Source of the DNA: a virus
Reading direction: 5' to 3' (one strand)
Length of the DNA stretch: 49,456 nt
Virus record (IMG/VR): IMGVR_UViG_3300008113_004802
Location: 1 to 49,456 of that record
The position numbers and the translations under genes were made by a program. The notes below the pieces were generated by a model. The model saw only the letters and a program-made list of their open reading frames with translations. It was not told the DNA's origin and made no database searches. Within the stretch, counting starts at the first letter, position 1. The number at the start of each line of letters is the position of its first letter. Below are positions 16,957-39,500 of the stretch, in pieces.

Positions 16957-17469
16957 ATGAGTTTGTTTCACAAGATTATGAATAAGTTAGGCAGATACCG
17001 CCTTATCCCAGATCGTAGAACAGGTGCTGACTATATGCACCGTTATTATCTTTTTCTCAAAGACCGTATTTGTTTCCCCTTTAATGTCACATTACACAAG
17101 ATTGTTCGTAGTGATGATCCTATTATGCATGATCATCCCTGGGCTTACATAACTATTATATTGAAAGGTGGTTATTGGGAGCATACACCTGTGTTTAATA
17201 ATGATGGCAAAATTCTTACAGAATTTCAAACATGGCGTGGTCCTGGTAGTATCATTAAACGTAGTGCAGGTGAATATCACTGGCTTGAACTTGATGAAAA
17301 TGTAGGTCCTGTAACAACACTATTTTTTATGGGGAAGCAACAACGTGAATGGGGATTTTTAGTACAAACTAAAAAAGGCATACATCGTTGGATTAAACAT
17401 ACGGACTATCTAAGTGATTGGAAATCCTATCACGAAAAATATGTAGTAGCTAAGTCAAAGAAAATATAA
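16957..17469 (+). CDS. cupin-like protein, 170 aa
   Basis: HDHPWAYITIILKGGYWE matches cupin motif 1 (HxH...E) at about residues 53-70, and GEYHWLEL later matches the motif 2 His. This suggests a small double-stranded beta-helix that could bind a metal. Substrate unknown. TAAGGAGTTTCT precedes the ATG. It ends in a TAATG overlap with the next gene. Confidence 0.6.
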   Translation: MSLFHKIMNKLGRYRLIPDRRTGADYMHRYYLFLKDRICFPFNVTLHKIVRSDDPIMHDHPWAYITIILKGGYWEHTPVFNNDGKILTEFQTWRGPGSIIKRSAGEYHWLELDENVGPVTTLFFMGKQQREWGFLVQTKKGIHRWIKHTDYLSDWKSYHEKYVVAKSKKI

Positions 17470-18855: not shown

Positions 18856-19095
18856 ATGTTTGATAAAATGGTAGATCAATTAAGAATACAGACATTAGGT
18901 AAAGGTAAAAAAGATTTTAAGATTAGTAAACAAGAGTTTGCTGATTTTTGCAAAGAGTTTCTATTTGAACAGATTAAAGGTGAGTACAAATTAGGTGAAG
19001 CTTTTTGTAAAAAATATGACGAACCAAATTATGTACTAAGTATTTTACCCGATCATAGTGCGAAGGCACATATTAAAAAATTCTACGTTAAATGA
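18856..19095 (+). CDS. hypothetical protein, 79 aa
   Basis: An upstream in-frame start at 18823 would overlap the previous gene by 32 bp; the ATG at 18856, 1 bp after that gene's stop, is preferred. The protein is basic and helical. Function unknown. ATGA overlap with the deaminase gene. Confidence 0.6.
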   Translation: MFDKMVDQLRIQTLGKGKKDFKISKQEFADFCKEFLFEQIKGEYKLGEAFCKKYDEPNYVLSILPDHSAKAHIKKFYVK

Positions 19096-19592
19096 AACAA
19101 AAATTTATAGACTATTATATGGATATAGCTGACCTAACTAGTAAGCTAAGTTCAGCTATCAGATTAAATGTAGGTGCTGTAATCGTTAAAGGCAATAAGA
19201 TTCTAGGTACAGGTTACAACGGTATGCCAACTGGATGGACTAACGAATGTGAATATAAAGAATACATGCCGGGTGATACTTGGGATGGACAATTATATCC
19301 ATTTGAAGAATATGATAGTTCTGTAGAAAGTAATCGTAGATATCGTTTAGTTACTAAGGATGAGGTATTACATGCAGAAATGAATGCAATTGCTAAAGTG
19401 TCCGCAAGTACAGAATCTAGCGAAGATGCTACATTGTTTGTTACACATGCACCATGCATACATTGTGCAAAAGCTATCTATCAATCTGGTATCAAAAATG
19501 TGTTTTATAGAGAAGCATACAGAGATACTAAAGGACTAGAGTTTCTTGAACAAGGTGGAGTAATTGTTAACAGATACCCAACACAAGATTGA
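19092..19592 (+). CDS. dCMP deaminase
   Basis: The 166-aa protein has the cytidine/deoxycytidylate deaminase zinc motifs HAEMNAI and APCIHCAK (HAE and PCxxC). LNVGAVIVKGNKILGTGYNG matches the N-terminal dCMP deaminase signature, and the His/Cys-rich insert region between is typical of T4 Cd. It converts dCMP to dUMP, feeding thymidylate synthesis during phage replication. Confidence 0.93.
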   Translation: MKQKFIDYYMDIADLTSKLSSAIRLNVGAVIVKGNKILGTGYNGMPTGWTNECEYKEYMPGDTWDGQLYPFEEYDSSVESNRRYRLVTKDEVLHAEMNAIAKVSASTESSEDATLFVTHAPCIHCAKAIYQSGIKNVFYREAYRDTKGLEFLEQGGVIVNRYPTQD

Positions 19593-20368: not shown

Positions 20369-22420
20369 TTACTTTGTAGTGGCACGATAGACGCCATCCC
20401 AATCAGTAGGTAAATTGTTTTCACGTAGTTCTCCTATTCTTTCTATCATTATATCATAATAGTCATCCATATGCGAATCAAATTCACCCTTTAGTTGGTC
20501 TATCATATGCAATGCCTGATCCCATTTCTGTTCACGGTAATAATCTATCATCAAATCATGTATCTCACGTGCTGATAGATATTCTGTAATAGTACTAGGA
20601 TCAGTCTTTAATGGTGTGTAGATATTCAATCCAATTGTCTTACCCTTTACAGCAATACAATCTAACTCTAATGTAAAGATTTCATCTTTAACTTGCTCAT
20701 TAGTATTAGGACCAATGATACATAACACACCATATCCTTTAGTCTGGCCTTCTAGCCTAGCCGCAGTAGATACACTATCACCTAATACGTCATAACCAAA
20801 CTTAGTTTTAGCACCAATGTTACCGATCAATGTTTCACCTGTGTTAACACCGGCACCCATACCAACTGGTGGACGACCACTCGCTGTTAACTCTTTATTG
20901 AATTCTTCAATAGCATCAATCATTTGCATTGCAGTTATAACCGCTGTTACTGCATGTTTAGGATCGTCTAATGGTGCACCATGTACATGTAAACTTGCAT
21001 CACCGATGAACTTAATTAATGTACCATCGTTCTTTAATACAGGAACACTTAATGCAGTCATGTAGTCATTCATAATCTGTGTCAAGCCTTCAACGTCATC
21101 TCCGAATGACTCGCCTAAACTAGTGAAGCCACGCAAATCAGTCATAACAATAGATAATTCTCTACGTTCTCCTCCTAACTTAATTAGTGAAGGATCTTTC
21201 TGTAATCTTTCAACTATAGTTGGATTGACATAACTTCCAAACTGTTTCTTAATTTGTTGTTTCTGTAAGAATTCACTTACAAACTTGACAGTATAAGCAT
21301 GAAGATAAACCAAACCAATCCCAGTAACAGGGGCGGTAATATCATAGAGCCATAGATTGGATGTGAATAGATACGATGCAATAAAATGACTAGAACCAAG
21401 AACAATAATAACTGGAATAAAAGCATATGTCCACCTTGATAATAATATAACTAATAAACCTAAAGCTAGTATAGCGATAAGTTCCACACCATCAGCATAA
21501 TCAGGACGCACAATAACAACATTGTTAAGCATCGTTCCTATTATACTAGCTTGAACATCATGTGGCCATACTGATCCTTTACTTGTCGGTACAGGATTGT
21601 TTAATCCACTCGCAGTTAAGCCCACTATAACAATAGCACCACCAAAGTCTTTTGGTAGATCCATTAAACTTACTGGTTTGCTTTGTTGACTGTAATCAAT
21701 CCAAATACGTCCTAAATTATCAGTAATAATAGTACCAAACTTTGGTATACGCATTTTTTCTACACCATTCTCGTTAAGCTTAACTTGGAATGTTGTATCT
21801 CCTGCGGCCACTCTTAGTACTTCCATACTTAAACTTGGGTAGAGTTTACCATCTACACTAGCAATCAATGGGATACGTCTATTGACACCATCTATCTCTG
21901 GTAATGTATTAGCTGTACCTACACCATATGCACTGTTTTCTAATAGAGGAACGTTAGCAATGATTCCTGGATACTGAACTATTCTATCTAACCATTCAGG
22001 AGCTAATACTGCTGCACCTGGATTACGTGGAATATTCTTTGTTTTGTCACTAGGTATATTAGGAAGAATAACAGGATACTGTTTCATAATATATGCTAAC
22101 TTACCATCTTGACCACTTCTATCACTATCAGGCATTAGTACGTTGAATACAACAAGACCTGCATTACGTTTGTATAAGTCTTCTATTATTTTAGCGTATT
22201 CGTTGCGTGGTAATGGCCACTGACCATACTTGTCCAATGTTGCTTCATCTACATTGACTGTGTAGATGTTGTTTTCTGTTGGAGCTTTATTAGTGATAAG
22301 AGTATCAAAATATCTTAATCTAACTGATTCTATGAATTGAGAATCTGCTACACGAACCGAAAGAACTAGTACTAGCGTTAGTAGCGCCGACCAGGGACTG
22401 AGAATTATTTTTTTAATCAT
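20369..22420 (-). CDS. CHASE2 receptor with class III nucleotidyl cyclase domain
   Basis: The protein has an N-terminal membrane segment, a periplasmic CHASE2 domain (about residues 30-310; NVDEATLDKYGQWPLPR is typical), three membrane spans (about 310-385) and a class III cyclase domain (about 405-600). Metal-binding Asp residues are present (MTDLRGFTS and FIGDAS), as are the purine-contacting Lys (IKFIGD) and Asp (GYDVLGD) and the transition-state Arg (TAARLE). The Asn seven residues after that Asp in mammalian cyclases is Ser here (GDSVSTAAR), which may lower activity. It would make cAMP in response to an envelope signal. It lies at the end of the curli/FecR/adhesin strand. Confidence 0.9.
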   Translation of the reverse strand: MIKKIILSPWSALLTLVLVLSVRVADSQFIESVRLRYFDTLITNKAPTENNIYTVNVDEATLDKYGQWPLPRNEYAKIIEDLYKRNAGLVVFNVLMPDSDRSGQDGKLAYIMKQYPVILPNIPSDKTKNIPRNPGAAVLAPEWLDRIVQYPGIIANVPLLENSAYGVGTANTLPEIDGVNRRIPLIASVDGKLYPSLSMEVLRVAAGDTTFQVKLNENGVEKMRIPKFGTIITDNLGRIWIDYSQQSKPVSLMDLPKDFGGAIVIVGLTASGLNNPVPTSKGSVWPHDVQASIIGTMLNNVVIVRPDYADGVELIAILALGLLVILLSRWTYAFIPVIIVLGSSHFIASYLFTSNLWLYDITAPVTGIGLVYLHAYTVKFVSEFLQKQQIKKQFGSYVNPTIVERLQKDPSLIKLGGERRELSIVMTDLRGFTSLGESFGDDVEGLTQIMNDYMTALSVPVLKNDGTLIKFIGDASLHVHGAPLDDPKHAVTAVITAMQMIDAIEEFNKELTASGRPPVGMGAGVNTGETLIGNIGAKTKFGYDVLGDSVSTAARLEGQTKGYGVLCIIGPNTNEQVKDEIFTLELDCIAVKGKTIGLNIYTPLKTDPSTITEYLSAREIHDLMIDYYREQKWDQALHMIDQLKGEFDSHMDDYYDIMIERIGELRENNLPTDWDGVYRATTK

Positions 22421-22473: not shown

Positions 22474-23250
22474 TTATGTTGATGAATATCCTGCGGCTGC
22501 TAATCCAGTTCTAGCAGTACCTACACCTGCAATATCAGTACCCATAACACCGGTGTTTGATATTAGGTTGGTGATTGAAGTGGGCCCACCCCCATAACCA
22601 AATATAGCTTTATCACCACCGTAACTTGCGGCTGCGTAAGAAGCCCTTGCAGACCGGGTTTGTCCGGGACCTGTATAAGATACAAATGTAACATCAGAAG
22701 CTACTACACCTGTATTTGATACTAGATTGGTTGCGTACAATAATTCTCCTCCTTGTATAACGCCGAATCCAAATATAGCTTTATTACCACCATAACCTGC
22801 GGCAGCCAATCCCCATCTAGCTGTTCCAACTCCGGTGGTATCAGTTGCAACAACACCGGTGTTTGATACTAGGTTAGTCATTGATAGATAATTAGCTTCT
22901 GATTGGCCAAATCCATATCCAAATATGGCCTTATCACCACCATACCCTGCGGCTGCTAGGTATTGTCTAACAGTACCAACACCTGCAGTATCTGTAGCTA
23001 CCACACCTGTGCTTGATACTTTGTTGGTGATTGCGGTGTATATAAGACTTGTGGAACCATATCCAAATATAGCTTTATTACCACCATAACCTGCGGCTGC
23101 AAGATTGTATCTAGCAGTACCAACACCAGCGGTATCTGTAGCTACCACGCCAGTATTGGATACTAGGTTAGTAAGGGCTTTATTACTATAGGAAACAGTA
23201 GTACCATATCCAAATATGGCCTTATCACCACCATACCCTGCGGCTGCTAA
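22474..23250 (-). pseudogene. start-less fragment of a repeat adhesin
   Basis: The frame opens directly after stop codons and has no plausible start: the first GTG is 34 codons in, inside a repeat, with no ribosome binding site. It encodes five imperfect repeats of about 50 residues built from LAAAGYGG, KAIFGYG, TNLVSNTGVVATD and GVGTAR, a Kelch-like beta pattern. Its first codons overlap the stop of the giant adhesin gene in another frame. It looks like a detached C-terminal fibre segment that needs frameshifting or recombination to be expressed. Confidence 0.6.
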
Positions 23251-26200
23251 TCATTAATCGTCACAGTACTACTTGTGGCAACTATGGTACCACTGGTACT
23301 ACCGGTTCTTAATGACACCGTAAATGTTTCTGCTCCTTCTGTTGTTGCATCATCTGTTGTAGTTACAGTAAATGAACCGGCATTAGAGGTTATTGTAAAT
23401 GAACCTGAACTGGCTGAAAAATCATTTGCCGCAGTTGAGATATTATTAATTGACCAGTAATATGTTCCATTAATAATATTTGTTCCACCAACATTAAATG
23501 TCAATGTACTTACCTCATTAACACTTGAAGATGCCGGTGTTATGGTGTAAGTAGGTGTCAAACTAATATCATTAATTGTCACCGGAATACTTGTGGCAAC
23601 TATATCACCACTAACACTACCGATTCGTAACGACACCGTAAATGTTTCTGCTCCTTCAGTTAATTGATCGGCTGTCGGTGTTACTGTAAATGAACCGGCA
23701 TTAGATGTAATTGTAAAAGATCCAGAGCTTGTTTCAAAATCACCGACATTTGAATTTATTGTCCAGTAATATGTTCCATTGATAATACCTATTCCACCTG
23801 CATTAAATGTCAATGCTGAACCTTCATTAACACTTGAAGATAGCGGTGTTATAACATAAATAGGCGTGTCCGATGTAGTAAATGTTATTGAGCCTGAGCT
23901 TGTAAATGTATAATATCTATATCCGTCACGTTGTATTGTTGATACTGTACCGGTCGTTACTGATGCCGGTGCATATGAGTCCAAGTATCGAAGGACAACA
24001 GCTCCGGCAGCTCCGTTGAAACCATCGTAAGGTGCACCGCCAGAACTGCCTCCGCCTCCGCCGCCACCGCTATTAGGAGACCCTGAACATCCTAATATAG
24101 TACCAGTATTGATATGAAAAATAGTAGCTTGACCACCTCCGCCAATTCCACCGAGACCTGTTCCAGTACTAGTATTAGATTGTGCTCCACCACCGCCACC
24201 GCCGTAATATTTACCATCAAAGGCCTGCAATCCTGGACCACCGTTGCCGGTGCCATCAAGAGGAGTGCCAGTACTATCCGATCCTGCCCCGCCCGCTCCA
24301 CCACCGCCTCCGGTATCAACAGTCTGACCGGTGCCGCCATCATATCCTTGACCAATAGTGCCGGCACCGCCAGCTGCATAACCACTAACAGACGAGCCGC
24401 CACCGCCTGAACCACCTGCGCTTCCACTTTGGATACTACCACCTCCACCTCCCCCTATAGCAGTAATAGATCCAAATACAGAATTGGATCCATTATTGCC
24501 AGGTTGAGTCGAATCTACTGACCCAGTACCACCTTCACCAACTATCACTGTAATAGGTACACCGGGTGTAATACTATATCCTGTTCCCGTCAAGAAGCCA
24601 CCACCACCACCGCCACCGCCACCGCCGTAGCCACCACCACCACCGCCGGCTACAACTACATAATCAATTGTTGTTGGTATTGTAGTTGATGTAACGACAG
24701 AAACTGAATTACTAGGAACACTAGTGCCTATACTATTAGTAGCAGTTACTGTAAATGTATAAGTTGTGTCAAGGGTCAAATCACTAAACACTGTGCTACC
24801 ACCATCTATACAATTGACAGTATTAATAATCCCTAACGGATATTGAACATTGCCGGGAAGACGAGTTATACTATATGTAGTGATCGGTGAATTTCCATTA
24901 CTGATTGGAGCAAGAAAATCAACTGTAGCTGTAGTAGCATTAATTAATGTTGCACTTAATATGATAGGAGCAGAAGGAGCAGTAGTAGTTCCTGCTATCG
25001 CCCCTACTACATCCCTAGCTGGAGAAGCTGGTAATACATTTACCCAATTAGTACCACTACCTATTTGAGTTGGACTACTACGAGGGATGATATTGCTTAA
25101 TCCCAGTATACCACCAGAATTAGAGCCCCAACTCCACAATGTGCCGTCAGATTTAACACCTACAACAGAAGAATATCCTGCATTTACAATAGACCAATTG
25201 GTGTCGCTACCTATCTGAGTTGGACTACTTCTTTCGATAGAAATTGAATTCAATCCGGTTTGGCCATGCCTAGAATCCCCACATACCCACAACGTACCGT
25301 CTGTTTTTATTAAAAAATTAGTATCTGATCCAGTCGACTGGGTTTTAGATATTCTAGCCCATGTAGTTAATGAGCCAACTTGTACTGGACTACTTCTAGA
25401 GATTGTAGTATTATCACCTAAGGTACCAAATGTATTATCTCCCCAAGACCATAATGTACCGTTTGTTTTAATTGCCAATACATTCTGCGTATTACCACCT
25501 ATACTGATCCAATCAGTATCAGCACCGACTTGAACTGGACTACTTCTAGCTATTGTATTGTTTGTACCCAACTGACCAGCAGAATTATCTCCCCATGCCC
25601 ATAATGTTCCATTTGTTTTTAGTGCAAAAGTAGAATATGGACCACTAAACACACTAGACCAATTTGTGTCAGACCCTAATTGCACTGGGCTACTTTTGTT
25701 TGTACTATTTGAGTTGCTTATTCCGGATATAGATATAGGCTCGCCCCATACCCATAATGTACCATCTGTTTTAACAGCAAGTGAAACTGCGTCCTGACTT
25801 ACTGCTGTCGCAGAAACTACTCTCCAATTAGTCAAGCTGCCAACTTGTACTGGACTACTTCTAGTCACATTATCGTTAACACCTAATTGACCAACACCAT
25901 TGGGACCCCATGCCCACAATGTACCATCTTTTTTCGTTGCTAACACATGTTTATATCCTACACTAATAGTAGACCAAGTACTAGCACTACCGACTTGAAC
26001 TGGACTACTTCTAGCTATTATATTATTTGTACCCATTTGTCCGTTTGCATTCAGTCCCCAAGTATACAATTCGGTAGTGGGTATATTAGTTGTAACACTA
26101 TTACTTGCACTACTAGGTAAGCTTTCACCGACACTATTTGTTGCAGTAACTGTAAATGTATAAGTTGATTGTGGATTTAATCCAACTACAGTAATTGGTC

Positions 26201-29200
26201 CGAGCACAGTTGAGTAAGCTTTGATATTATCCGGAGTACTTGTTACCGTATATTGTACGATATCACTCCCGTTATCAGATAATGGTCTAGTAAATGATAC
26301 ACTGACTGTACTTATACCTGTAACTGTTGCGACTACATTTGTAGGAGCTGATGGTTTAGCTGCGGTACCTTTAATAAGCATTGCGGTACCTCCTGTGAAT
26401 TCAGAACTAGCTCTTAACCAGTTAGTGTCACTACCAATTTGTACCGGACTACTTCTGCTAACTACATCACCGAGTCCTAATTGACCAACACCATTGGGAC
26501 CCCATGACCATATTGTACCATCAGTCTTGATGGCTTTTGTTGTACGGCCGGCACTAACCACAGTCCAGCTACTTGTACCAAGTTGAGTCGGGCTACTACG
26601 ATGCACTGTATCATTTAATCCCAATACTCCGAATGCATTCTCCCCCCATGTCCATAATGAACCATTATTTTTAATAGCGGCTGCATTGTATCTTCCTCTT
26701 GATATTTTTACCCACGTAGTTTCTGAACCTATTTGCACAGGACTACTGCGAGTTACTACATCGTTTAGTCCTAACTGTCCGTAACTATTAGAGCCCCATG
26801 CCCACAATGTGCCATCTATTTTTTTAGCAAAAACACTACTACTAGCAACATCATCGCCACCTGTGCTAACATAATCCCAATTAGTATCAGTACCAATCTG
26901 GGTCGGACTTGATCGAGATACAGTAGAGATCAAACCTAAAGGCGGTCCGCCATAGCCTGTAACCCATAGTGTACCATTTGTTTTAACAATGTACATGTTA
27001 ACAATACCTGCTCTTAAATTTCTCCAGTCAGTATTACTACCAATTTGAGTTGGGCTACTACGATACACTTGATCGTTTAGTCCTAACTGTCCCCATGCAT
27101 TGCTACCCCAGGTCCATAAACTACCATCTTTCTTGATTGCCGCGGCGTAGATGCCGGCCGACACAGTAATAGCTTCCCAATCAGAACCATTTCCTATTTG
27201 CACAGGGGCACTACGGTATATCGTATCACCCAAACCCAGTTGACCTGAATCATTAGGACCCCAAGCCCATAATGTACCGTCAGTTAAAAGTCCTAATGAC
27301 ATAGCTTGTGTAGCATTTGGCCCGCCGCTTAATACAGTTTTCCAACTTCTAAGCTGACCGACTTGTACCGGACTAGACCTGTTGATAGTGGAGTTTATAC
27401 CTAGTTGCCCTTCTTGATTAGCACCTACTGAATATAAATATAATTCAGGATTAGGAGTATCTACAGGTATAACACTATCACTTGCGCTACTTGGTGCACT
27501 AGTACCTATACTATTAGTTGCTGTTACTGTAAATGTATAACTTGTGCCTGGTATTAAGTTATTAACAATAATACCGCCACCACCTGACTTGTTAGATAGT
27601 GTACCTGTATATCCACCCGGTGTGCTTGTTGCAGTATATGTTACATAACTATATGTACCTGTAACAATTGGAGCCGCAAAGCTAACACGTACGCTAGTAG
27701 ATGATACTGCTTCTACAGCTAATATAGTTGGTGCACTTGGTGCAGTTTTACTACCATTAAGAGCCATGACATAATTTTCACCTGAACCAACACTATTAAC
27801 CCAAGTTGTAGAACTACCCACTTGTACTGGACTACTACGATATACTAAATCATTTTGTCCTAGTTCTCCTGTTTGATTTCCGCCCCAACTCCACAATGTG
27901 CCATCTGTTCTGTTTGCAATAGTAAATTGAGTAGAGGTAGTAGTTACTACTTTTCCGGCAGTAGTTATATTATTCCAGTTAGTATCTGTTCCTATTTGTA
28001 CTGGACTACTTCTGTTAATAACAGTATTGTCACCCACACTACCAAACTGATTATTACCCCAGCCCCATAGTGTACCATTAGTTTTTGTAGCAAATACACT
28101 AGTTTGTGTTGTAAAAAATCCACTAGACGATTTAACAATCTTATACCAATTAGTTAGTCCTCCAATTTGTACTGGACTACTACGTAATATTACAGAATTA
28201 ATACCTAACTCTCCGTTGCTGTTGTTACCCCAAGACCAAAGTGTTCCGTTAGTACGAGTTGCCAATGCATTGTATGCCCCCCCACCTATATTAACCCAAT
28301 CAGTATCATTTCCAACTTGTATAGGGCTATTGGCACCAATTGGTGAATTTGTACCTAGTTGTCCATACGTATTATCACCCCATGCCCATAGAGAGTTATC
28401 TGTTTTTATGCCCAAACCAAAACTTTGAGTTTGAAATATATCAACCCAATCAGTGTCTGATCCAATTAATACCGGACTAGATACTCCAAATAATAGTCCT
28501 ATTGACGCTCCATTCAACGGTCCACTTCCAAATTGACCCCATGACCAAAGAGTACCATCAGTTTTTATTGCAGTAGATGTATAGTAACCTACACCAACGT
28601 TATTCCATGTAGTTAATGCCCCAACTTGAATAGGGGAACTTACATAACTTACACCACTACCTAATCCAAATCCGCCATTATCAGCACGTCCACCCACAGC
28701 CCATAAAGTGCCATTATTTTTTGTTGCTAATGTATATCTGTATCCTACAGCTAGCGTACTCCAATCTCCAGTTGATCCTATTTGTGTAGGACTACTTCTA
28801 GGTACGGTATCACTTAACGCTAATTGATAATATTGATTTGTACCCCATGAATAAGGATTTATAGCAGGAGCACTTGTTGTAATGCTATTACTTGCACTAC
28901 TTAAAGAACCACTACCTATACTGTTTGTTGCATATACAGTAAATGTATAACTTGTGCTTGGTACTAATCCGTTTACTGTGATAGTACCAGAATCACTTTG
29001 TACTAATGTACCTGTGATATTGCCCGGTGTACTTATTGCTGTATAGCTAATGATAGTACTATTACCGTTACTTGCAGGGGCAGTAAATGCTACCGTAGCA
29101 CTATTTGCACCTGTTGCAGTTGCTGTACCTATAGTAGGTGCATCTGGCACATTAGTAGTAGGTAATGCGTTAAATCCGCCTGTAATCGTTATTCCGGTAA

Positions 29201-29207
29201 AATCCAT
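23247..29207 (-). CDS. giant RCC1/FN3/Calx-beta adhesin or tail-fibre protein
   Basis: The 1986-aa protein alternates domains. FN3 modules lie at about residues 20-112, 480-580, 955-1040 and 1410-1505. Between them are three RCC1 blocks (about 115-480, 590-950, 1045-1405), each with exactly seven copies of a repeat with a SSPVQIG-type motif and GTLWxWG, consistent with three complete seven-bladed propellers. A Gly-rich region (about 1510-1735) and two Calx-beta-like repeats (to the end) follow. There is no signal peptide, so it is more likely a virion fibre than a secreted adhesin. A late-type box precedes it. Confidence 0.85.
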   Translation of the reverse strand: MDFTGITITGGFNALPTTNVPDAPTIGTATATGANSATVAFTAPASNGNSTIISYTAISTPGNITGTLVQSDSGTITVNGLVPSTSYTFTVYATNSIGSGSLSSASNSITTSAPAINPYSWGTNQYYQLALSDTVPRSSPTQIGSTGDWSTLAVGYRYTLATKNNGTLWAVGGRADNGGFGLGSGVSYVSSPIQVGALTTWNNVGVGYYTSTAIKTDGTLWSWGQFGSGPLNGASIGLLFGVSSPVLIGSDTDWVDIFQTQSFGLGIKTDNSLWAWGDNTYGQLGTNSPIGANSPIQVGNDTDWVNIGGGAYNALATRTNGTLWSWGNNSNGELGINSVILRSSPVQIGGLTNWYKIVKSSSGFFTTQTSVFATKTNGTLWGWGNNQFGSVGDNTVINRSSPVQIGTDTNWNNITTAGKVVTTTSTQFTIANRTDGTLWSWGGNQTGELGQNDLVYRSSPVQVGSSTTWVNSVGSGENYVMALNGSKTAPSAPTILAVEAVSSTSVRVSFAAPIVTGTYSYVTYTATSTPGGYTGTLSNKSGGGGIIVNNLIPGTSYTFTVTATNSIGTSAPSSASDSVIPVDTPNPELYLYSVGANQEGQLGINSTINRSSPVQVGQLRSWKTVLSGGPNATQAMSLGLLTDGTLWAWGPNDSGQLGLGDTIYRSAPVQIGNGSDWEAITVSAGIYAAAIKKDGSLWTWGSNAWGQLGLNDQVYRSSPTQIGSNTDWRNLRAGIVNMYIVKTNGTLWVTGYGGPPLGLISTVSRSSPTQIGTDTNWDYVSTGGDDVASSSVFAKKIDGTLWAWGSNSYGQLGLNDVVTRSSPVQIGSETTWVKISRGRYNAAAIKNNGSLWTWGENAFGVLGLNDTVHRSSPTQLGTSSWTVVSAGRTTKAIKTDGTIWSWGPNGVGQLGLGDVVSRSSPVQIGSDTNWLRASSEFTGGTAMLIKGTAAKPSAPTNVVATVTGISTVSVSFTRPLSDNGSDIVQYTVTSTPDNIKAYSTVLGPITVVGLNPQSTYTFTVTATNSVGESLPSSASNSVTTNIPTTELYTWGLNANGQMGTNNIIARSSPVQVGSASTWSTISVGYKHVLATKKDGTLWAWGPNGVGQLGVNDNVTRSSPVQVGSLTNWRVVSATAVSQDAVSLAVKTDGTLWVWGEPISISGISNSNSTNKSSPVQLGSDTNWSSVFSGPYSTFALKTNGTLWAWGDNSAGQLGTNNTIARSSPVQVGADTDWISIGGNTQNVLAIKTNGTLWSWGDNTFGTLGDNTTISRSSPVQVGSLTTWARISKTQSTGSDTNFLIKTDGTLWVCGDSRHGQTGLNSISIERSSPTQIGSDTNWSIVNAGYSSVVGVKSDGTLWSWGSNSGGILGLSNIIPRSSPTQIGSGTNWVNVLPASPARDVVGAIAGTTTAPSAPIILSATLINATTATVDFLAPISNGNSPITTYSITRLPGNVQYPLGIINTVNCIDGGSTVFSDLTLDTTYTFTVTATNSIGTSVPSNSVSVVTSTTIPTTIDYVVVAGGGGGGYGGGGGGGGGGFLTGTGYSITPGVPITVIVGEGGTGSVDSTQPGNNGSNSVFGSITAIGGGGGGSIQSGSAGGSGGGGSSVSGYAAGGAGTIGQGYDGGTGQTVDTGGGGGAGGAGSDSTGTPLDGTGNGGPGLQAFDGKYYGGGGGGAQSNTSTGTGLGGIGGGGQATIFHINTGTILGCSGSPNSGGGGGGGSSGGAPYDGFNGAAGAVVLRYLDSYAPASVTTGTVSTIQRDGYRYYTFTSSGSITFTTSDTPIYVITPLSSSVNEGSALTFNAGGIGIINGTYYWTINSNVGDFETSSGSFTITSNAGSFTVTPTADQLTEGAETFTVSLRIGSVSGDIVATSIPVTINDISLTPTYTITPASSSVNEVSTLTFNVGGTNIINGTYYWSINNISTAANDFSASSGSFTITSNAGSFTVTTTDDATTEGAETFTVSLRTGSTSGTIVATSSTVTIND

Positions 29208-29228
29208 ATGTGTTTATTCTATTAAAGA

Positions 29229-29237
29229 GTATTTATC
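29229..29237 (-). promoter_or_regulatory. T4-late-like promoter box GATAAATAC
   Basis: The box lies 21 bp before the ATG of the giant adhesin, in the gap upstream of that gene, as expected for a structural gene. Confidence 0.5.
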
Positions 29238-29323
29238 TCACTTAGGATTATATATTTGTATAGTAATCTTAGTTTAGCCTCATTATCTTGTATTTAGTTT
29301 AAGAAATAACGAGAGTTGAAATA

Positions 29324-29812
29324 TTATCTAAAAACAATAGTTACTGTTGCTAACATCACAGGCACACCCATAGCCATACAACTTAGACCTATCAATACAC
29401 GGTCAATCATATCAGCATGTGCCTTAGCAATTGTTTCTTTGCGTTTTTTCTCGGCTGCGGCACGTTCTTTATACATACGGACACGTTCAGCCATCATTTC
29501 ATCCCATACATCTTTGTTGCCAGACCATATTAATAAGTCTTTCAAATCTTTCTCTGCTTCTCTAAGTGCTTTACTATGCATAGCAATCTGCAAAGCGTGT
29601 GCTCGTATCTGACCATCAGTTAACATTGAATTATCAATTTTTTCTTTTAAATCTGTACTAGCAGAATGCACTGTATCACAGTTTATAAAAAAACTACTAA
29701 ATTGTTTATAAAGACTATTAACATCTTTACCCAAAGCTACAGCTTGTTTAATGTAGCCTACTGTTTTCTGTGCAGTTGCAAAAGCAATACCAATTGTGAT
29801 AGGGTCAAGCAT
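29324..29812 (-). CDS. helical protein with C-terminal membrane span, 162 aa
   Basis: The N-terminus MLDPITIGIAFATAQKTVGYIK is amphipathic or weakly hydrophobic, the centre is a long charged helix (Lys, Glu, Arg, Ala), and the C-terminus VLIGLSCMAMGVPVMLATVTIVF is a membrane span. Similar small phage proteins exist but have no assigned role. It overlaps the preceding 53-aa gene by 8 bp. Confidence 0.65.
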   Translation of the reverse strand: MLDPITIGIAFATAQKTVGYIKQAVALGKDVNSLYKQFSSFFINCDTVHSASTDLKEKIDNSMLTDGQIRAHALQIAMHSKALREAEKDLKDLLIWSGNKDVWDEMMAERVRMYKERAAAEKKRKETIAKAHADMIDRVLIGLSCMAMGVPVMLATVTIVFR

Positions 29813-29966
29813 TTTTCTTAGGCTCCTTATTTTTTGGAGGAGGTTTATCCCATTCTAAACACACAACTCTACGGTTGTATACATCGCCAGTCCAAGTCCA
29901 TCTTATACAACGAGGCTCTTTGGCTAGCATTCCTACTAGCATCATTGAAGCAATAGCATTAACCAT
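29805..29966 (-). CDS. small protein with hydrophobic N-terminus, 53 aa
   Basis: The N-terminus is hydrophobic (MVNAIASMMLVGMLA), followed by a compact Trp/Cys-rich segment CIRWTWTGDVYNRRVVC and a Pro-Lys-rich tail. It lies between the second curlin-like gene and the 162-aa gene with overlaps, so it is probably real. It could be a small membrane or exported protein. Confidence 0.6.
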   Translation of the reverse strand: MVNAIASMMLVGMLAKEPRCIRWTWTGDVYNRRVVCLEWDKPPPKNKEPKKNA

Positions 29967-29967
29967 G

Positions 29968-31086
29968 TTATTGGCCCTGTGTTACTGTGATTTTAGCGCA
30001 CCCACCTACTGTCGCACAGTTGAAATTGATTGAATAGAAGTTCTGAGTAGAACCACTCTGACTTAAACTTAAATCTGTAGTAGTACCTGATAATGTAACT
30101 TTAGCCATGTGACTAGCACTACCTTGTTGAAGTATGTCTACGTTTTTGCTTCCACCAAATAGACTAACATCAGCATAATGACTTCCGCTATCTTTCTGTT
30201 GAATTAACAATGTGTTATTATTGTTATTCACTGTAGCAAATATACCTTTGCCTCCACCGGTGCTTTGTTGTTGTAAATTTACATTGTTACTATTGCCAAC
30301 GACTGAAGCATCTATATAATTTGCTTGTGTATTACTATTACCTGATTGAGTAATTGTAATAGTATTACTACTACCATTACTGTAATATTTTGTATAGTTG
30401 TTTTTTGTACCTGTTTGATTGACAGTAATTGTATTTTGATTACCAAGTTGTTCTATATAAACCTGACTGTCTTGTGTTGTACGATTAATAAATGCTTGAA
30501 CTTTTGCAGTATTATTAGGATCAGCACTAAATGCAGTAGAACTACCACCGCAACATAGACTCGGTGCAGCCGGTGCGGCTGTTTGTCCTGCGGCTAAAGG
30601 TTCAGTAGAATATGTTGCATTAGCATATGCATCTGCTTGTGCTATAGTAGGGTTCAATGTTCCAGTCCAAGATACACCACTAGTATTTGCCATTCCAGAA
30701 CTACCACTAAACAATTGACCTGTATTGTTATCACTACCTACAAAGAAAAAATAATCAGGTCCCATGTTAACAATCTTACCGCTACCTAATGTAGCTTTTA
30801 GACTCCCTGCACTATTATATTGTTTTGCTGTATAGGGAAATGATGCATTGCCACTTAATTCAAACTTAACATAATCACCAGTAGCCCATTGCACTTGTCC
30901 ACTAGTCCATGGTATCTTGTATGCGACACCGGGTTGTTTACTATATATTTGACAGGTAGTTGTATATAAACAAGCACTTACATTCCATTGACTATCAGCG
31001 ATTTGGTATCTGCCAAATTTAACATCTGTTAAACTAGCAAAAGCATTACTACACAAAAATAATAGTAATAAGAATATCTTTTTCAT
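29968..31086 (-). CDS. exported curlin-repeat protein, 372 aa
   Basis: A signal peptide MKKIFLLLLFLCSNAFAS starts the protein. A first domain of about 150 residues contains Cys pairs and is not recognised. From about residue 200 there are curlin-type repeats: VYIEQLGNQNTITVNQTG, NTITITQSGNSN, and later NVNLQQQ, TLLIQQKDSG and NVDILQQGS. The spaced Gln, Gly and Asn match CsgA/CsgB amyloid repeats. It is probably exported through the phage or host CsgG. It is larger than CsgA (151 aa) and has an extra N-terminal domain. Confidence 0.82.
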   Translation of the reverse strand: MKKIFLLLLFLCSNAFASLTDVKFGRYQIADSQWNVSACLYTTTCQIYSKQPGVAYKIPWTSGQVQWATGDYVKFELSGNASFPYTAKQYNSAGSLKATLGSGKIVNMGPDYFFFVGSDNNTGQLFSGSSGMANTSGVSWTGTLNPTIAQADAYANATYSTEPLAAGQTAAPAAPSLCCGGSSTAFSADPNNTAKVQAFINRTTQDSQVYIEQLGNQNTITVNQTGTKNNYTKYYSNGSSNTITITQSGNSNTQANYIDASVVGNSNNVNLQQQSTGGGKGIFATVNNNNNTLLIQQKDSGSHYADVSLFGGSKNVDILQQGSASHMAKVTLSGTTTDLSLSQSGSTQNFYSINFNCATVGGCAKITVTQGQ

Positions 31087-31256
31087 TTGTTGTTTTTAAC
31101 AAACCAATAATGTTTCTGTAACTCTCTAAGTACTTCGCTTTCCGGCTGCTTGAACTGTCTTGCCGCCATTTCAACAAAGTCTAACCATCTAAAATCATAT
31201 TGTTCATTACCCTGGCACCATTGCTGATACATTAATTGTAATTCTCTTCCCGTCAT
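31083..31256 (-). CDS. small helical protein, 57 aa
   Basis: The gene overlaps both the FecR-domain gene and the curlin gene in ATGA junctions, supporting its expression. The sequence TGRELQLMYQQWCQGNEQYD with FVEMAARQFKQPE is helical and soluble, without signal peptide. Not recognised. Confidence 0.6.
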   Translation of the reverse strand: MTGRELQLMYQQWCQGNEQYDFRWLDFVEMAARQFKQPESEVLRELQKHYWFVKNNK

Positions 31257-32347
31257 CTTTTTCTTATTCCTGAATTCTGTTTGATAAAGACCATATTACC
31301 TCCCGGTGATCCATCACCAATAAGTTCCGATGCTAATGTATCGTTATGAATAATAGTAACTAATGTGTTTGAACTGTATCCCAGTGTTTTTACTTCAGCA
31401 TAATGTTCATTCTCTGTATTACGATATGCCACACCCTTACCCCTACTTTGTATCTCTGATTCATTTTTTTCCCAGATGACGCAGACATTTGTAGCAGAAT
31501 TACAATTCTTGTTTACAAACCCAGTAGTAAGATTTAATATCCTTGCTTGTGTCTCATCACTATCTTTTTGTATAGCTTCATTTAACTTACGTGCTTGCTC
31601 TTGTTCTTCTTGTTCTTGTTCCATTTCTTTTTTGCTCTTACCATTTTGATTGTTAATAGCTTTAATAATTTCCAATGGCTTTACAATAATCAAGTTGTTT
31701 GATATTTTTCTCTCAGTTATATTCATTACAACTGGTATAGTAGGTGCTATATTATTACTTGTAACAAATGTACCATGAAATGCTTGATCCAATACAACTT
31801 TGCCAACCAATGTCTCTACTTCAATACTACCTACACGGCATTTGTTTTCTTCTAATTCGTAATCTTTCACTTTTTCATCTTCTTTACAGCTAGGAACTAA
31901 TACGATTAAGCTCTGTCCTGCTTCATCTACTGTCATAGTGAAGTCAGTACCACGTACTGCAATACTTGCTGTTGGAGTTTTGATTGCTACTTGTTGACTA
32001 TTTGTTTTAGCAATTTGTCCTGATGCATAGCGTACTGTACCCATACCAACTTTAAGTGCTAGTTTTCCTGCATCACTTTTATTGGGGTCAAACACAAAAT
32101 CGTCTATAAGTAAACGACTATTCTCGGTTACTTTGACTTTAGTATCATCTTTGAAAATTAATTGTACTGTGCCGTTTTTAGTAGAATAGATATCATTACT
32201 TTCGATACCAACACCTTTATTGCCTACAACTTTGTTTTTTCCACGAGTAATTTCACCAGGAGCACCTGTAAATTCCGATACGTTACCTATGTTAGCATTT
32301 GCTGTTATACATAATAGCAAAGACAACAATATGAATAACTTACGCAT
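31253..32347 (-). CDS. FecR-domain exported protein
   Basis: A signal peptide (MRKLFILLSLLLCITANA) is followed by a FecR domain at about residues 30-190, with GTVRYASGQIAK and IKTPTASIAVRGTDFTM as clear signatures. A coiled coil rich in Glu and Gln (about 235-270) and a C-terminal beta-rich segment follow. FecR domains act in envelope signalling or, in many adhesin loci, alongside CHASE2 cyclases and secreted fibres. It lies between two curlin-repeat genes and upstream of a CHASE2 cyclase on the same strand, which fits such a module. Confidence 0.88.
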   Translation of the reverse strand: MRKLFILLSLLLCITANANIGNVSEFTGAPGEITRGKNKVVGNKGVGIESNDIYSTKNGTVQLIFKDDTKVKVTENSRLLIDDFVFDPNKSDAGKLALKVGMGTVRYASGQIAKTNSQQVAIKTPTASIAVRGTDFTMTVDEAGQSLIVLVPSCKEDEKVKDYELEENKCRVGSIEVETLVGKVVLDQAFHGTFVTSNNIAPTIPVVMNITERKISNNLIIVKPLEIIKAINNQNGKSKKEMEQEQEEQEQARKLNEAIQKDSDETQARILNLTTGFVNKNCNSATNVCVIWEKNESEIQSRGKGVAYRNTENEHYAEVKTLGYSSNTLVTIIHNDTLASELIGDGSPGGNMVFIKQNSGIRKR

Positions 32348-32349
32348 TA

Positions 32350-33117
32350 TTATCTCGGTACTGCTGTTCTTGGTGTTGATATTGTACTTGCGCTACTAGT
32401 TCTCACAGTAATAGTATTGTGATCACCCGTAGTTTTAATGTCAACAGTTGTATCATTTGTACCTTGTTGTTGAGTAATAATACTATTGTAGTTACCTGCA
32501 ATAACTTGTTTCAAGTTATGGCCATTTGCACCACTAGCATCAAATTGTTCAATGTCAAGTTTGTTATTACTACCGGTGATACTGATATCACTTATACCAA
32601 AACTACTTTTTAAATCTTTAGTAATTTCATTAGTGCTACCTGTAATTAATAATGTGCTTTGAATATCACTACCAATTAAGTTTTGAATAACAGTATTATC
32701 GTTACCAGTAATTGTTTCAGTAATGATGTTACGTAAATTACTTGCATTTTGTACATCACCAACTGTTAGTTTGGTCTTATTGTTGTTTCCAGTAACTGTA
32801 CTAGTGTAGTCGTTGTTATTACCTTTAATGTTATATTGACCTAAATTGTTGTCACCTTTTTGAATCATAGTAATAGTGTTGCTATTACCACTAATAGTGG
32901 CATAGTTAGTATTACTAGGTGTGGCATTATCTACCCCACCGATGTTGTTAGTTCCACCTGTTTGTTCAAGTGTGACTGTGTTGGTATTACCAACTTGTTC
33001 AATATAAACTTTATTAGGGCCTGTAGCGGCAGTTTGTACCTGCGCCATACTAGTTCCTGTTAGCAATGATAATGCTAATGCTGAAAGCACCGTCTTATAG
33101 TTTTTATAATGCTTCAT
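32350..33117 (-). CDS. curlin-repeat protein, CsgA/CsgB-like
   Basis: The start at 33117 gives a signal peptide ending TGTSMAQ; a GTG at 33147 is also in frame but lies 1 bp after AAGGAG, too close. The mature protein opens VYIEQVGNTNTVTLEQTG, a curlin repeat, followed by many Asn/Gly/Thr-rich repeats (ISGNSNTITMIQKGDNN, VTGNNNKTKLTVGD, ITGSNNKLDIEQ). These predict a beta-helical amyloid like the CsgA/CsgB fibre. It should be the main substrate of the CsgG pore encoded just upstream. Length 255 aa exceeds CsgA. Confidence 0.85.
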   Translation of the reverse strand: MKHYKNYKTVLSALALSLLTGTSMAQVQTAATGPNKVYIEQVGNTNTVTLEQTGGTNNIGGVDNATPSNTNYATISGNSNTITMIQKGDNNLGQYNIKGNNNDYTSTVTGNNNKTKLTVGDVQNASNLRNIITETITGNDNTVIQNLIGSDIQSTLLITGSTNEITKDLKSSFGISDISITGSNNKLDIEQFDASGANGHNLKQVIAGNYNSIITQQQGTNDTTVDIKTTGDHNTITVRTSSASTISTPRTAVPR

Positions 33118-33234
33118 TAAAATACAGTAATCAGTTGTCCTGATCACGCTCCTTGGGTTTTACCCTTATTTTTATTACCTACTTCTTTTTAGATATTTGA
33201 TAGACTGTAGGCTTTTTGGTCTACCAAACATTGT

Positions 33235-34233
33235 TTATTCTTTTACTTCTTCTTTCTTTTTACTGAATTTGAATATGTTTGTGAATCCTTCTGAGACCTT
33301 ATTCCAGAAACTTCTAATTTCGTTTCCTTTAATATCTTTTCCGTTGTCGGGCTTAGATGGTGCGGTTGTAATTTTGGGGGTGTCTTTAGGTGAGGCTTTC
33401 TCTTGAACCAACTCATTTTTTTTCTCCTCTTTTTTAAAATTCCAATGTCCCTTACGAGCACCTTCACGTATTGTATCTATGACGGCTGCTTGTATGGCCA
33501 TACTTGTAGCCTTGTTAATGCTTTCATTAATACTAACACCAACTTCAGCTTCAATACTACTTGTACCTTCACTAGCAAAACGTAATACGCCTGCTTTGTC
33601 CATATAACTTAATACGGTTTTAGTAACTGTTACACTAGTTAATACTTCGCCTGTGCTAACGCTTACTGTTCTTAAATTGATAGTTACTGTGTCTGACTGA
33701 TATTGTGTGCTAGTCCCAATACCTAATACTCTGACACCTGAACCACCTGTTAATGTGTTGCTATCATAACCAACAATACCACCTTCAACCAATACACCGG
33801 CAAACATCATTGGGGGTAATGGTTTAGCATCACGTCCTTGATATTGTTCACGCATCTGACGTATCATTTGACGTTCTTTGATTAAGTTATCTAATCCAAC
33901 ACGTTCTAATACAACAAACCACTTGCTCTCACCTACATCTTGTAATGCTTTAATCAAGTAGCTTTCTGCACCCTGTGTAACTGCTGAACTTAAGCTAGCA
34001 ATATTCTGTGTACTTTTACGTTGTCCTGTTTTATCTGAAAACCCATAGACAGCAATAGTAATAGGACCATCATTTGGTGGCAGTAACTTATTGTTATCTT
34101 TTTTCATATAAACGTTTTGTTCTATAACAGGCTCATCAAATTGTTTACCCGTGATTGCATTTCTAGTACTGCTACTGATGGCACAACCAGAAAGGATAAG
34201 CACGACCGATAATAATAGTAATAGTTTTTTCAT
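33235..34233 (-). CDS. csgG: CsgG-like outer-membrane curli secretion lipoprotein
   Basis: The lipobox LILSGC follows a 14-residue signal, giving a lipid-anchored protein. The CsgG core is clear: ITIAVYGFSDKTGQ, LVEGGIVGYDSN, GIGTSTQYQSDTVTINLR, VSTGEVLTSVTVTKT and VLRFASEGTSSIEAEVG follow E. coli CsgG block by block. The constriction residues of E. coli CsgG (Tyr51, Asn55, Phe56) fall in GQRKSTQNIASLSSAV and are not kept, so the pore eyelet differs. A Lys-rich tail of about 65 residues is extra. It forms a nonameric outer-membrane channel in bacteria. It is directly downstream of csgF (TAATG). Confidence 0.93.
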   Translation of the reverse strand: MKKLLLLLSVVLILSGCAISSSTRNAITGKQFDEPVIEQNVYMKKDNNKLLPPNDGPITIAVYGFSDKTGQRKSTQNIASLSSAVTQGAESYLIKALQDVGESKWFVVLERVGLDNLIKERQMIRQMREQYQGRDAKPLPPMMFAGVLVEGGIVGYDSNTLTGGSGVRVLGIGTSTQYQSDTVTINLRTVSVSTGEVLTSVTVTKTVLSYMDKAGVLRFASEGTSSIEAEVGVSINESINKATSMAIQAAVIDTIREGARKGHWNFKKEEKKNELVQEKASPKDTPKITTAPSKPDNGKDIKGNEIRSFWNKVSEGFTNIFKFSKKKEEVKE

Positions 34234-34715
34234 TAGAAGTAAAATGTCCCCGCTGGTACCTTCATTGTTGTTGTTTGTGATGGGTTAGCATTGTTAACAA
34301 TAGTGATAATGATTAAACCATTATCTGCTCCATCACCTAATTTCCAACTGATAGTATTGCCACCTAAATCAGGAATAGTTCCACAAATTACACCTTTTGT
34401 AGTGCAAGTTGATCCTTCACCGAACATACTATCAGTCAACTGTTTGGCTAGTTGACTATAAATTCTTGACTCTAAATTAGCTAAAAATCTAGCTTGAGGT
34501 GTATTAAGGGCATCACTCTCTACCTTTGCTTTTAATGCATCGGCTAATGCCTTATTCTTGTCTTTTTGTAGGTCTTCTAACTGTTTTAACGTTAGTACAT
34601 GGCTACTATAACCCTGTCCGCTGAAACTAGGGCTATTAAACTGATGCGTTAATTCAGCCGAATAGGCTAACACAGCGAGCATCATTAGGGTACTTACTGT
34701 TATACCTCTTATCAT
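34233..34715 (-). CDS. csgF: CsgF-like curli assembly factor
   Basis: After a signal peptide ending VLAYSAE, ELTHQFNSPSFSGQGY matches the conserved N-terminus of CsgF (TFQFRNPNFGG), the segment that plugs into the CsgG pore. The C-terminal half has the beta-rich WKLGDGADNGLIIITIVNNAN and PSQTTTMKVP, like the CsgF tail. It would tether or nucleate curlin at the CsgG exit. The protein is 160 aa (E. coli 138). First gene of the minus-strand curli operon. Confidence 0.88.
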   Translation of the reverse strand: MIRGITVSTLMMLAVLAYSAELTHQFNSPSFSGQGYSSHVLTLKQLEDLQKDKNKALADALKAKVESDALNTPQARFLANLESRIYSQLAKQLTDSMFGEGSTCTTKGVICGTIPDLGGNTISWKLGDGADNGLIIITIVNNANPSQTTTMKVPAGTFYF

Positions 34716-34801
34716 TATCTGCTCCGATCCGATAAATATTATATATATATATTTAGTTGATTTACATCAAAAGATATAGTGTAATACATAAAAGGATATT
34801 T
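34716..34801. promoter_or_regulatory. AT-rich divergent control region
   Basis: This 86-bp gap separates the curli genes (-) from the membrane-protein genes (+). It contains GATAAATATT (34731-34740) and a run of TA dinucleotides. Promoters for both directions are expected here, but no consensus -35/-10 pair was found. Confidence 0.4.
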
Positions 34802-35083
34802 ATGGGAGATATATTTAAGATTATAGGTGACTTAGGGTTTCCAATTGCGGTTGCCCTTGCCGGTGGTTACTTTGTTTATTTGACTATCAAACTACTATTA
34901 CAGGGTGTTCTAGGGTCAATCAAAGGTATGGCCGGCATCATTACTGCACTTGATAATCGTGTAAAAACTATGAACCATGATGTTATTCGTATTGATACCA
35001 TTGTTAGTAATGCTCTAGGTTTACGTCCAGATGCGGAACGTATAGCCCGTGCTGATGGTAAAACTGATGCTCGGAGGGATTAA
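34802..35083 (+). CDS. single-span membrane protein, paralogue A, 93 aa
   Basis: The ATG at 34802 follows AAAGGA; an upstream in-frame start at 34757 would add an unlikely 15-residue extension. One membrane span (GFPIAVALAGGYFVYLTIKLL) is followed by a helix with ALDNRVKTMNHDVIRID and a charged tail. The gene at 36267 encodes a paralogue with the same order. The size and topology would suit a holin or spanin-like accessory, but nothing proves it. Confidence 0.65.
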   Translation: MGDIFKIIGDLGFPIAVALAGGYFVYLTIKLLLQGVLGSIKGMAGIITALDNRVKTMNHDVIRIDTIVSNALGLRPDAERIARADGKTDARRD

Positions 35084-35715: not shown

Positions 35716-35728
35716 AAGGAGAATAAAA

Positions 35729-36265: not shown

Positions 36266-36266
36266 T

Positions 36267-36587
36267 ATGGATGTAGTAGAACTAATTAATAAATATGGCT
36301 TCCCGATTGTTATGGCAGTTGGGATGGGCTTCATTATCAAATATGTTTGGGAATGGGCCACAAAAGAAGTTAAGCCAGTTATTAGTGATGCTAACACTGT
36401 TCTTATTGCATTGATTGACCGTATCAGGATGTTAGATAATGACTTGATACGTTTAAATCAAAAAGTTAATACTGTACTTCATTTACGTGGTAAAACAATT
36501 GAGTTTGAACGTGTAGAAGCAGAAAAGCAAATTAACAATATTAAAAAAACTGAAGATGATAAGGCTGCAAGTAGCGGAGAAGGTTAA
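36267..36587 (+). CDS. single-span membrane protein, paralogue B, 106 aa
   Basis: GFPIVMAVGMGFIIKY and ALIDRIRMLDNDLIRLNQKV align with GFPIAVALAGGYFVY and ALDNRVKTMNHDVIRID of the protein at 34802, so the two are paralogues. The C-terminal tail is charged. The copies flank the other membrane genes, suggesting duplication followed by specialisation. Confidence 0.65.
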   Translation: MDVVELINKYGFPIVMAVGMGFIIKYVWEWATKEVKPVISDANTVLIALIDRIRMLDNDLIRLNQKVNTVLHLRGKTIEFERVEAEKQINNIKKTEDDKAASSGEG

Positions 36588-37150
36588 TGAAAATTATTGA
36601 AGACACAACTAAAAAAATCCCCCATCTATACCTAGATATGGATGGAGTACAGGCTGACTTTTTTGGTGCTTGGGCAGATAAGCACGGTGTCTCTCATTGG
36701 AAAGCTATACAAGATAAAGAAGGCGAGATTGAAGATTTAGCCAATAGTACAGCCGAACAAGTATATGATTTTTTCCGTAAACTCAAACCACTTAGTGGTG
36801 GTATGGAAGTTGTTCGTTGGGCACAGCAACACAATATTCCATATACAGTCTTATCAGCTCCATTACGTGGACCATTTGCTGATGCAAGTAAACAAGCAAA
36901 AAAAGATTGGTTAGACACATATCATCCTGGTTCTAGTAGTAATGCAATCTTTACGTCAGCTAAGTTTAAATATGCAGTTAGTGATGGTGTAGCAAATGTA
37001 TTAGTAGATGACTTTGGTCCATACATTCAGAAATGGACTGATGCCGGTGGTATACCAGTTAAGCATGAAGATGAGTCAGAGGTATCAAGTGCGGCACAAG
37101 ATACTATTAATAGACTAGAAAAAATCTACTCACCTTTTCTGACTAAATAG
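36587..37150 (+). CDS. HAD-family 5'(3')-deoxyribonucleotidase-like protein
   Basis: YLDMDGVQADF is HAD motif I (DxDGVxAD), with the nucleophile and acid Asp. SAPLRG matches the motif II Ser region and LVDDFGPYIQKW matches motif IV. The overall plan fits the NT5C class that removes phosphate from deoxynucleoside monophosphates. It would adjust nucleotide pools with MazG-like and dCMP deaminase enzymes. Starts in a TAATG overlap. Confidence 0.8.
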   Translation: MKIIEDTTKKIPHLYLDMDGVQADFFGAWADKHGVSHWKAIQDKEGEIEDLANSTAEQVYDFFRKLKPLSGGMEVVRWAQQHNIPYTVLSAPLRGPFADASKQAKKDWLDTYHPGSSSNAIFTSAKFKYAVSDGVANVLVDDFGPYIQKWTDAGGIPVKHEDESEVSSAAQDTINRLEKIYSPFLTK

Positions 37151-37201
37151 TATGTTGGTAAACTAATTTGCCCAATAAACTTTTAATAATACAAACTAAC
37201 C

Positions 37202-37210: not shown

Positions 37211-37215
37211 ATTAC

Positions 37216-37838: not shown

Positions 37839-37841
37839 GAT

Positions 37842-39116: not shown

Positions 39117-39500
39117 ATGGCATACTCACAACAAGTTATAGATCACTATGAAAATCCCAGGAATGTTGGATCTTTTGACAAGACTGATACTGATATTGGT
39201 ACTGGTATGGTTGGCGCGCCTGCATGCGGCGATGTTATGAAATTACAAATAAAGGTTGACAATGTTACAGGTATTATTACAGATGCGAAATTTAAAACGT
39301 ATGGCTGCGGATCGGCTATTGCGAGTTCAAGCCTCATTACAGAATGGGTCAAAGGAAAAACACTTGACGAAGCCGGATCAATCAAAAACTCCGAAATCGC
39401 CGAAGAACTAGCATTGCCTCCGGTAAAGATACATTGTAGCATATTAGCTGAAGATGCCATCAAAGCCGCTGTAGAAGACTATAGAAAAAAAATAAAATGA
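39117..39500 (+). CDS. iscU: IscU, Fe-S cluster scaffold
   Basis: The protein is extremely close to proteobacterial IscU: the start MAYSQQVIDHYENPRNVGSF, GAPACGDVM with the first Cys and the Asp, YGCGSAIASSS with the second, and LPPVKIHCSILAEDAI with the chaperone-binding LPPVK and the third Cys. It would assemble 2Fe-2S or 4Fe-4S clusters using sulphur from host IscS, since no desulphurase is in the window. AAGGAAACA precedes the ATG. The closeness suggests fairly recent capture from a host. Confidence 0.96.
   Translation: MAYSQQVIDHYENPRNVGSFDKTDTDIGTGMVGAPACGDVMKLQIKVDNVTGIITDAKFKTYGCGSAIASSSLITEWVKGKTLDEAGSIKNSEIAEELALPPVKIHCSILAEDAIKAAVEDYRKKIK

Follow-up and report, generated by a model that had tools for sequence, protein, structure and literature searches.

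A phage-borne curli-type module with a two-part curlin protein whose front domain is exchanged between lineages

In a 49,456-nucleotide stretch of DNA from a virus infecting aquatic bacteria (IMG/VR record IMGVR_UViG_3300008113_004802, positions 1 to 49,456; the whole stretch is called the window), a curli-type (type VIII secretion) module was present in the order CsgF-CsgG-curlin-FecR-curlin-cyclase, with three genes inserted ahead of the cyclase. The two curlin proteins are called Cur1 and Cur2. Cur2 was composed of two parts, a C-terminal curlin part that was shared by all relatives compared and a front domain that was exchanged between phage lineages. The favoured reading, to which we assign a probability of about 0.55, is that infected cells export curli-like fibres with an exchangeable adhesin. 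The gene identities and their order, the two-part build and swapping of Cur2, the purifying selection, and the phage context are taken as established.

Cur2, defined as the curlin gene after FecR, was compared in 57 distinct proteins of at least 330 residues, and parts were linked at an E value of 1e-4 over at least 50 residues. The last 180 residues of all 57 proteins belonged to a single family, with 1583 of 1596 pairs linked, and residues 20–160 fell into seven unrelated groups of 28, 10, 8, 6, 2, 2, and 1 members, the largest of which included the window protein. By the same test, CsgF, CsgG, Cur1, FecR, and the cyclase each gave a single group for their N-terminal parts. When locus L035 was compared with L045, FecR, CsgG, and the C-terminus of Cur2 were 90, 93, and 71% identical, respectively, yet the front domains were unrelated; judged from these sequences, the swapping is recent in places. 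A binding tip that is subject to shifting selection would be expected to be exchanged between lineages in this way. The front domains carried the Pfam families F5/8 type C (23 of 56) and PA14 (6 of 56), and Cur2 of the pelagiphage HTVC008M fell in the PA14-type group. Among solved structures, the Cur2 family profile also matched one domain of a GH92 mannosidase (7nsn, 1.3e-17), with weak matches to further domains of discoidin type. Curlin repeats but no F5/8C- or PA14-type domain were found in ten long bacterial curlins encoded next to csgG. In the closest relative, L005, Cur2 was a bare solenoid of 155 residues. The front domain of the window Cur2 had no match in phage records, and the whole protein found nothing in plasmids. 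The modularity of Cur2 was not found in the openly licensed papers searched; databases already contain phage entries under the names 'Curlin associated' and 'PA14 domain-containing'.

Cur1 matched the Curlin_rpt profile with 25.2 bits (cut-off 20.7, 1.5e-5), and Cur2 scored 15.7 bits, under the cut-off. The family profiles of Cur1 and Cur2 matched the solved curli subunit R15.5 (PDB code 8c50) at 4.5e-11 and 2e-19, respectively, and because of this match Cur2 was assigned as a curlin despite its Pfam score. The AlphaFold2 model of Cur1 was an all-beta repeat with a predicted local distance difference test (pLDDT) score of 85 and a predicted template modelling (pTM) score of 0.79. The model of Cur2 had two domains (mean pLDDT 77.5, pTM 0.50), with a beta-rich front (residues ~19–160), a low-confidence linker (residues 165–189), and a run of short strands predicted as the curlin solenoid (residues ~205–371). 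The best named matches of a Foldseek search against viral models were 'Curlin associated' proteins of uncultured Caudovirales. The signal peptides of the curlin proteins were assigned by eye, and the start of cur1 is probably the ATG at 33117, which was conserved in the alignment, rather than the GTG at 33147.

The window CsgF matched PF10614 with 34.4 bits (cut-off 25.8, 2.9e-8) and retained an N-terminal segment, NSPSFSG, resembling the CsgG-binding one. Residues Pro29, Phe31, and Gly33 were invariant in an alignment of window, phage, and Vibrio/Photobacterium CsgF. The window CsgG matched PF03783 with 180.7 bits (cut-off 20.8, 3.1e-53), its residues 2–277 aligned to the E. coli CsgG structures 6lqh/4uv3 (4.8e-51), and the lipobox residue Cys17 was invariant across 45 phage CsgGs. 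It also carried a C-terminal extension of ~65 residues, in which no SH3 match was found. The bacterial CsgGs retrieved were mostly 274–290 residues long, and among 105 phage CsgGs, 24 had 300–379 residues and 25 had at least 380. In a set of 45 phage CsgGs picked so as to include long ones, C-terminal bacterial SH3 domains were identified as SH3_3 in 15 and SH3_4 in 13, with overlapping counts; SH3-tailed phage CsgGs were not found in the openly licensed papers searched. The C-terminus of E. coli CsgG is periplasmic, and an SH3b domain located there could thus bind peptidoglycan.

The FecR protein matched PF04773 with 39.6 bits (cut-off 24, 7.4e-10), and the cyclase matched the CHASE2 (5.4e-38) and Guanylate_cyc (1.8e-16) families of Pfam as well as phrog_35576 (1.9e-218). 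The order F-G-Cur1-FecR-Cur2-cyclase was kept in nearly all phage loci of sufficient length, and the FecR gene occupied the same slot in all complete ones. The slot between cur2 and the cyclase held different genes or none in other phages (a 473-residue beta-propeller protein in L005), and the insert genes of the window are probably outside curli function. Among 23 bacterial CHASE2 loci, drawn from nine named genomes, a FecR-like gene was located directly upstream on the same strand at seven. In the bacterial csg loci L061–L101, a FecR-like gene was nearby in L067 only and a cyclase in none. Since FecR stands beside CHASE2 at some bacterial loci and both are mostly absent at bacterial csg loci, the phage module seems to be a composite of a curli export set and a FecR-cyclase pair used elsewhere by bacteria. 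In some relatives, a gene of ~100–120 residues upstream of csgF gave a weak match to the cyclase profile (1e-5 to 1e-9) and is not a cyclase; in the window, csgF was preceded by a divergent gene on the plus strand.

An earlier sequence-only reading of the window had described CsgF and CsgG homologues on one strand, followed by two curlin signal-peptide proteins and then FecR, as a module at 29968–34715 that held pore, exit factor, and substrates in one phage-borne block. The Pfam matches confirmed the two homologues, and all five genes were located on the minus strand. The curlin and FecR genes were likewise recovered by profiles, but FecR sits between the curlins, and the extent has to be widened because the cyclase also belongs to the module. 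In the profile search that had been proposed as a check, CsgF, CsgG, and Cur1 were over their cut-offs, whereas Cur2 was recognized by its family profile only. The single block agrees with the profile matches and with the contig L004 described below. The cyclase, the two-part Cur2, and the C-terminal extension of CsgG had been overlooked.

The second contig, L004, was 99.97% identical over window positions 29761–44233, which comprise phage flank and all five genes. Since L004 spans flank and module, an assembly artefact or chimera was rejected, and with it the possible joint of phage and bacterial DNA raised earlier. A first IMG/VR scan gave 53 contigs with CsgG 65–100% identical, and a profile scan gave at least 586 relatives, many of whose sample numbers we take to be those of lakes. 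A T4-type Gp23 capsid gene was found in eight of eight tested module contigs of at least 250 kb (353, 280, 372, 357, 338, 364, 349, and 250 kb); this occurrence in all eight was not found in the openly licensed papers searched. Neither Gp23 nor any other capsid gene was present in the 49-kb window, which probably represents part of a large T4-like phage genome. When the window was compared with L005, the ratio of nonsynonymous to synonymous substitution rates (dN/dS) was 0.077 for CsgF, 0.149 for CsgG, 0.140 for Cur1, 0.141 for FecR, 0.113 for the C-terminus of Cur2, and 0.069 for the cyclase, values that are rough because dS was near or above 1 for several genes. These ratios indicate that all module parts, substrates included, are under purifying selection, which argues against decay.

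The tail sheath profile PF04984 exceeded its cut-off in a single record and was uninformative, and a megablast search with 25 kb of the window found no match in phage records. No T4-type late promoter (TATAAATA) was present upstream of csgF, and its window-wide count was below chance; promoter and terminator scans of the window showed no excess over shuffles, and the Rfam scan found nothing. A 'Salmonella phage' match (H7) was set aside as an unverified 1.5-kb fragment. The loci L057–L060 and L102, listed under genomes of Rhodobacteraceae, Flavobacteriaceae or Pelagibacter, had a module of the phage type and probably represent phage contigs that had been binned with bacterial metagenome-assembled genomes.

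Table 1. Features of the module and its surroundings; positions are those of the window unless a locus is given.
Feature	Position	Strand	Length (residues)	Basis
csgF, exit factor with signal peptide	34233..34715	-	160	Pfam PF10614 and alignment
csgG, outer-membrane pore lipoprotein	33235..34233	-	332	Pfam PF03783 and E. coli CsgG structures
cur1, curlin-repeat protein with signal peptide, likely fibre subunit	32350..33117	-	255	Curlin_rpt and family profile
FecR-domain protein with signal peptide, likely periplasmic	31253..32347	-	364	Pfam PF04773
cur2, second curlin protein with signal peptide	29968..31086	-	372	Family profile and AlphaFold2
CHASE2-adenylate/guanylate cyclase, last gene in conserved module order	20369..22420	-	683	Pfam, phrog_35576
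Insert between cur2 and cyclase, three proteins	22474..29812	-	224, 1986 (RCC1/fn3/Gly-rich/Calx-beta), 162	Pfam
1986-residue insert protein	23247..29207	-	1986	
224-residue insert gene	22474..23148		224	
Tandem repeat, 144 bp, 3.3 copies at 74%	22767..23247			
Small membrane proteins adjoining the module	34757..35083, 36267..36587	+		
ClpX-like AAA and zinc finger	7094..8293	+		
Hsp20	8612..9049	+		
ClpP	12170..12766	+		5.9e-81
Cysteine dioxygenase-like	16957..17469	+		
dCMP deaminase	19092..19592	+		
5'-3' deoxyribonucleotidase	36587..37150	+		
NifU-like	39117..39500	+		
Small genes with cyclase-profile match	L118:9188-9490, L045:9074-9394, L151:6185-6556, L139:2428-2727			

The 1986-residue insert protein contained RCC1 repeats, fibronectin III, and Gly-rich and Calx-beta-like parts; a signal peptide was not seen, and the protein was virion-adhesin-like. 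The tandem repeat overlapped the 224-residue gene. The two small membrane proteins adjoining the module were alike by eye and are possibly holin-like; their homologues occurred in ~60 related phage loci with up to 95% identity, far above the conservation of CsgG. The ClpX-like, ClpP, and Hsp20 genes constitute a phage-borne proteolysis and chaperone set, and the deoxyribonucleotidase, dCMP deaminase, cysteine dioxygenase-like, and NifU-like genes were of auxiliary type.

A phage-borne curli export module with its substrates has already been published and is hence not new. The carriage of amyloid substrates, which the sequence-only reading had offered as the new point, was reported in 2022, when curlin subunits, FecR, and cyclase without CsgE were described in marine myo- and podophages (PMC9599517), and the order is identical in HTVC008M and Melnitz. 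CsgF and CsgG were described in pelagimyophages, with hypothetical proteins of the cluster suggested as subunits (PMC7029224), and a histidine kinase is located upstream of the podophage modules (PMC9599517). The pelagiphage type VIII secretion system (HTVC008M; PMC7029224, PMC9599517) shares all six genes and their order with the window, and CsgE is likewise absent. The window phage differs in that it is probably large and T4-like, its CsgG is 40–45% identical to those of the isolates, an RCC1/fn3 gene set precedes the cyclase, and CsgG has the C-terminal extension; a two-part, domain-swapping Cur2 is not described in the available parts of the two papers. In Melnitz, a Methylophilales phage, the genes are ordered as in the window, with FecR and two curlin-repeat genes among them, but the Cur2 of this phage consists of curlin repeats without a separate front domain, unlike the window Cur2. 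When the window was compared with csgBAC/csgDEFG of E. coli, CsgG, CsgF, and curlin-repeat substrates were common to both, whereas the window had no CsgE, a different curlin length and layout, and FecR and the cyclase in addition.

The favoured reading further includes secretion, fibre formation, ligand binding, signalling, and benefit, which we infer. By homology, CsgG would be the outer-membrane pore with CsgF at its exit. Cur1 and Cur2 would reach the periplasm via their signal peptides and exit unfolded through the pore without CsgE. Cur1 would then assemble on the infected cell into a beta-solenoid fibre resembling curli, and Cur2 would dock on this fibre or on CsgF through its conserved C-terminal curlin solenoid. 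R15.5, matched by the profiles of Cur1 and the C-terminal domain of Cur2, is a plain solenoid that polymerizes head to tail, whereas Cur2 has an extra domain and might cap one end. Curli subunits are open-ended solenoids stacked head to tail, and added blocking domains were argued to stop stacking in other solenoid proteins (PMC10192328); Cur2 with its front domain could thus terminate a Cur1 fibre or, by way of the flexible linker, decorate it, in either case exposing the front domain. The displayed N-terminal domain would be an exchangeable ligand-binding domain, so that the target of the adhesin would differ between phage lineages. The secreted FecR protein and the CHASE2 cyclase would act together as a sensor pair of bacterial type, monitoring the periplasm or surface and producing a cyclic nucleotide while the infection proceeds. 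The phage would probably benefit in that infected cells and released virions are kept near new hosts.

Several observations weigh against fibres with an adhesin. Cysteines and folded front domains could hinder the transit of a narrow pore. The front domain of the window Cur2 had no F5/8C, PA14, or any other Pfam name, and the Foldseek search of the Cur1 and Cur2 models against the PDB gave no significant solved structure. CsgE, which had not been visible in the sequence-only reading either, boosts secretion in E. coli and is missing from the phage module: none of the 24 records searched (the window, itself a fragment, and 23 related ones) scored above the PF10627 cut-off, with a positive E. 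coli control, and the sole sub-threshold match was a 32-residue frame in another phage. Curli reportedly form without CsgE, however, which is hence not essential (PMC7029224). OM43 cells infected with Melnitz did not clump (PMC9004378).

The same export could also serve surface masking or superinfection exclusion, in which fibres and Cur2 fronts cover or bind receptors or rival virions and block adsorption. The swapping of front domains between close phages is as in an arms race over surface targets, and protection against competing viruses was proposed for the module (PMC9599517); the discoidin and PA14 domains suit adhesion equally well, and we consider masking rather unlikely as the main role. 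A repurposed pore, in which CsgG-CsgF is a leak, uptake, or lysis-timing channel and the curlins are plugs or minor passengers, appears still less probable. The periplasmic cap CsgE is absent, and the SH3 domains of some CsgGs could tether the pore to peptidoglycan, but the curlin substrates were conserved in order and under purifying selection, and the swapped front domains are left unexplained; leakage and lysis, two of the uses named in the sequence-only reading, are hard to reconcile with substrates that are conserved and a front that changes. The lysis role argued for Melnitz (a pinholin or secretin idea) was based on the view that csgA and csgB are lacking (PMC9004378), and the Melnitz record annotates two curlin-repeat genes, contrary to that premise. 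That Cur1 and Cur2 are virion parts such as spike-like solenoids, with CsgF-CsgG a mere neighbour, is very improbable: a variable tip on a beta-solenoid resembles phage tailspikes and the adjacent RCC1/fn3 protein looks virion-like, but both proteins start with signal-peptide-like sequences, accompany csgF-csgG across loci, and have family profiles that match the curli subunit 8c50.

Curli genes in phages have posed a puzzle since 2020, with proposals that range from sibling capture to lysis timing. The module, reported from marine phages of ~40 kb and 140 kb, is now extended to T4-like contigs of 250–372 kb. A constant, presumably fibre-docking domain with exchangeable, often sugar-binding-like fronts favours surface adhesion or masking over a pore that acts by itself. 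More tentatively, curli may be a modular display scaffold used by phages, with Cur1 as the amyloid stalk and Cur2 as a capping or docking adhesin whose front is exchanged like tail-fibre tips. If so, the infected cell would be a target-specific trap or shield, host-made but virus-evolved.

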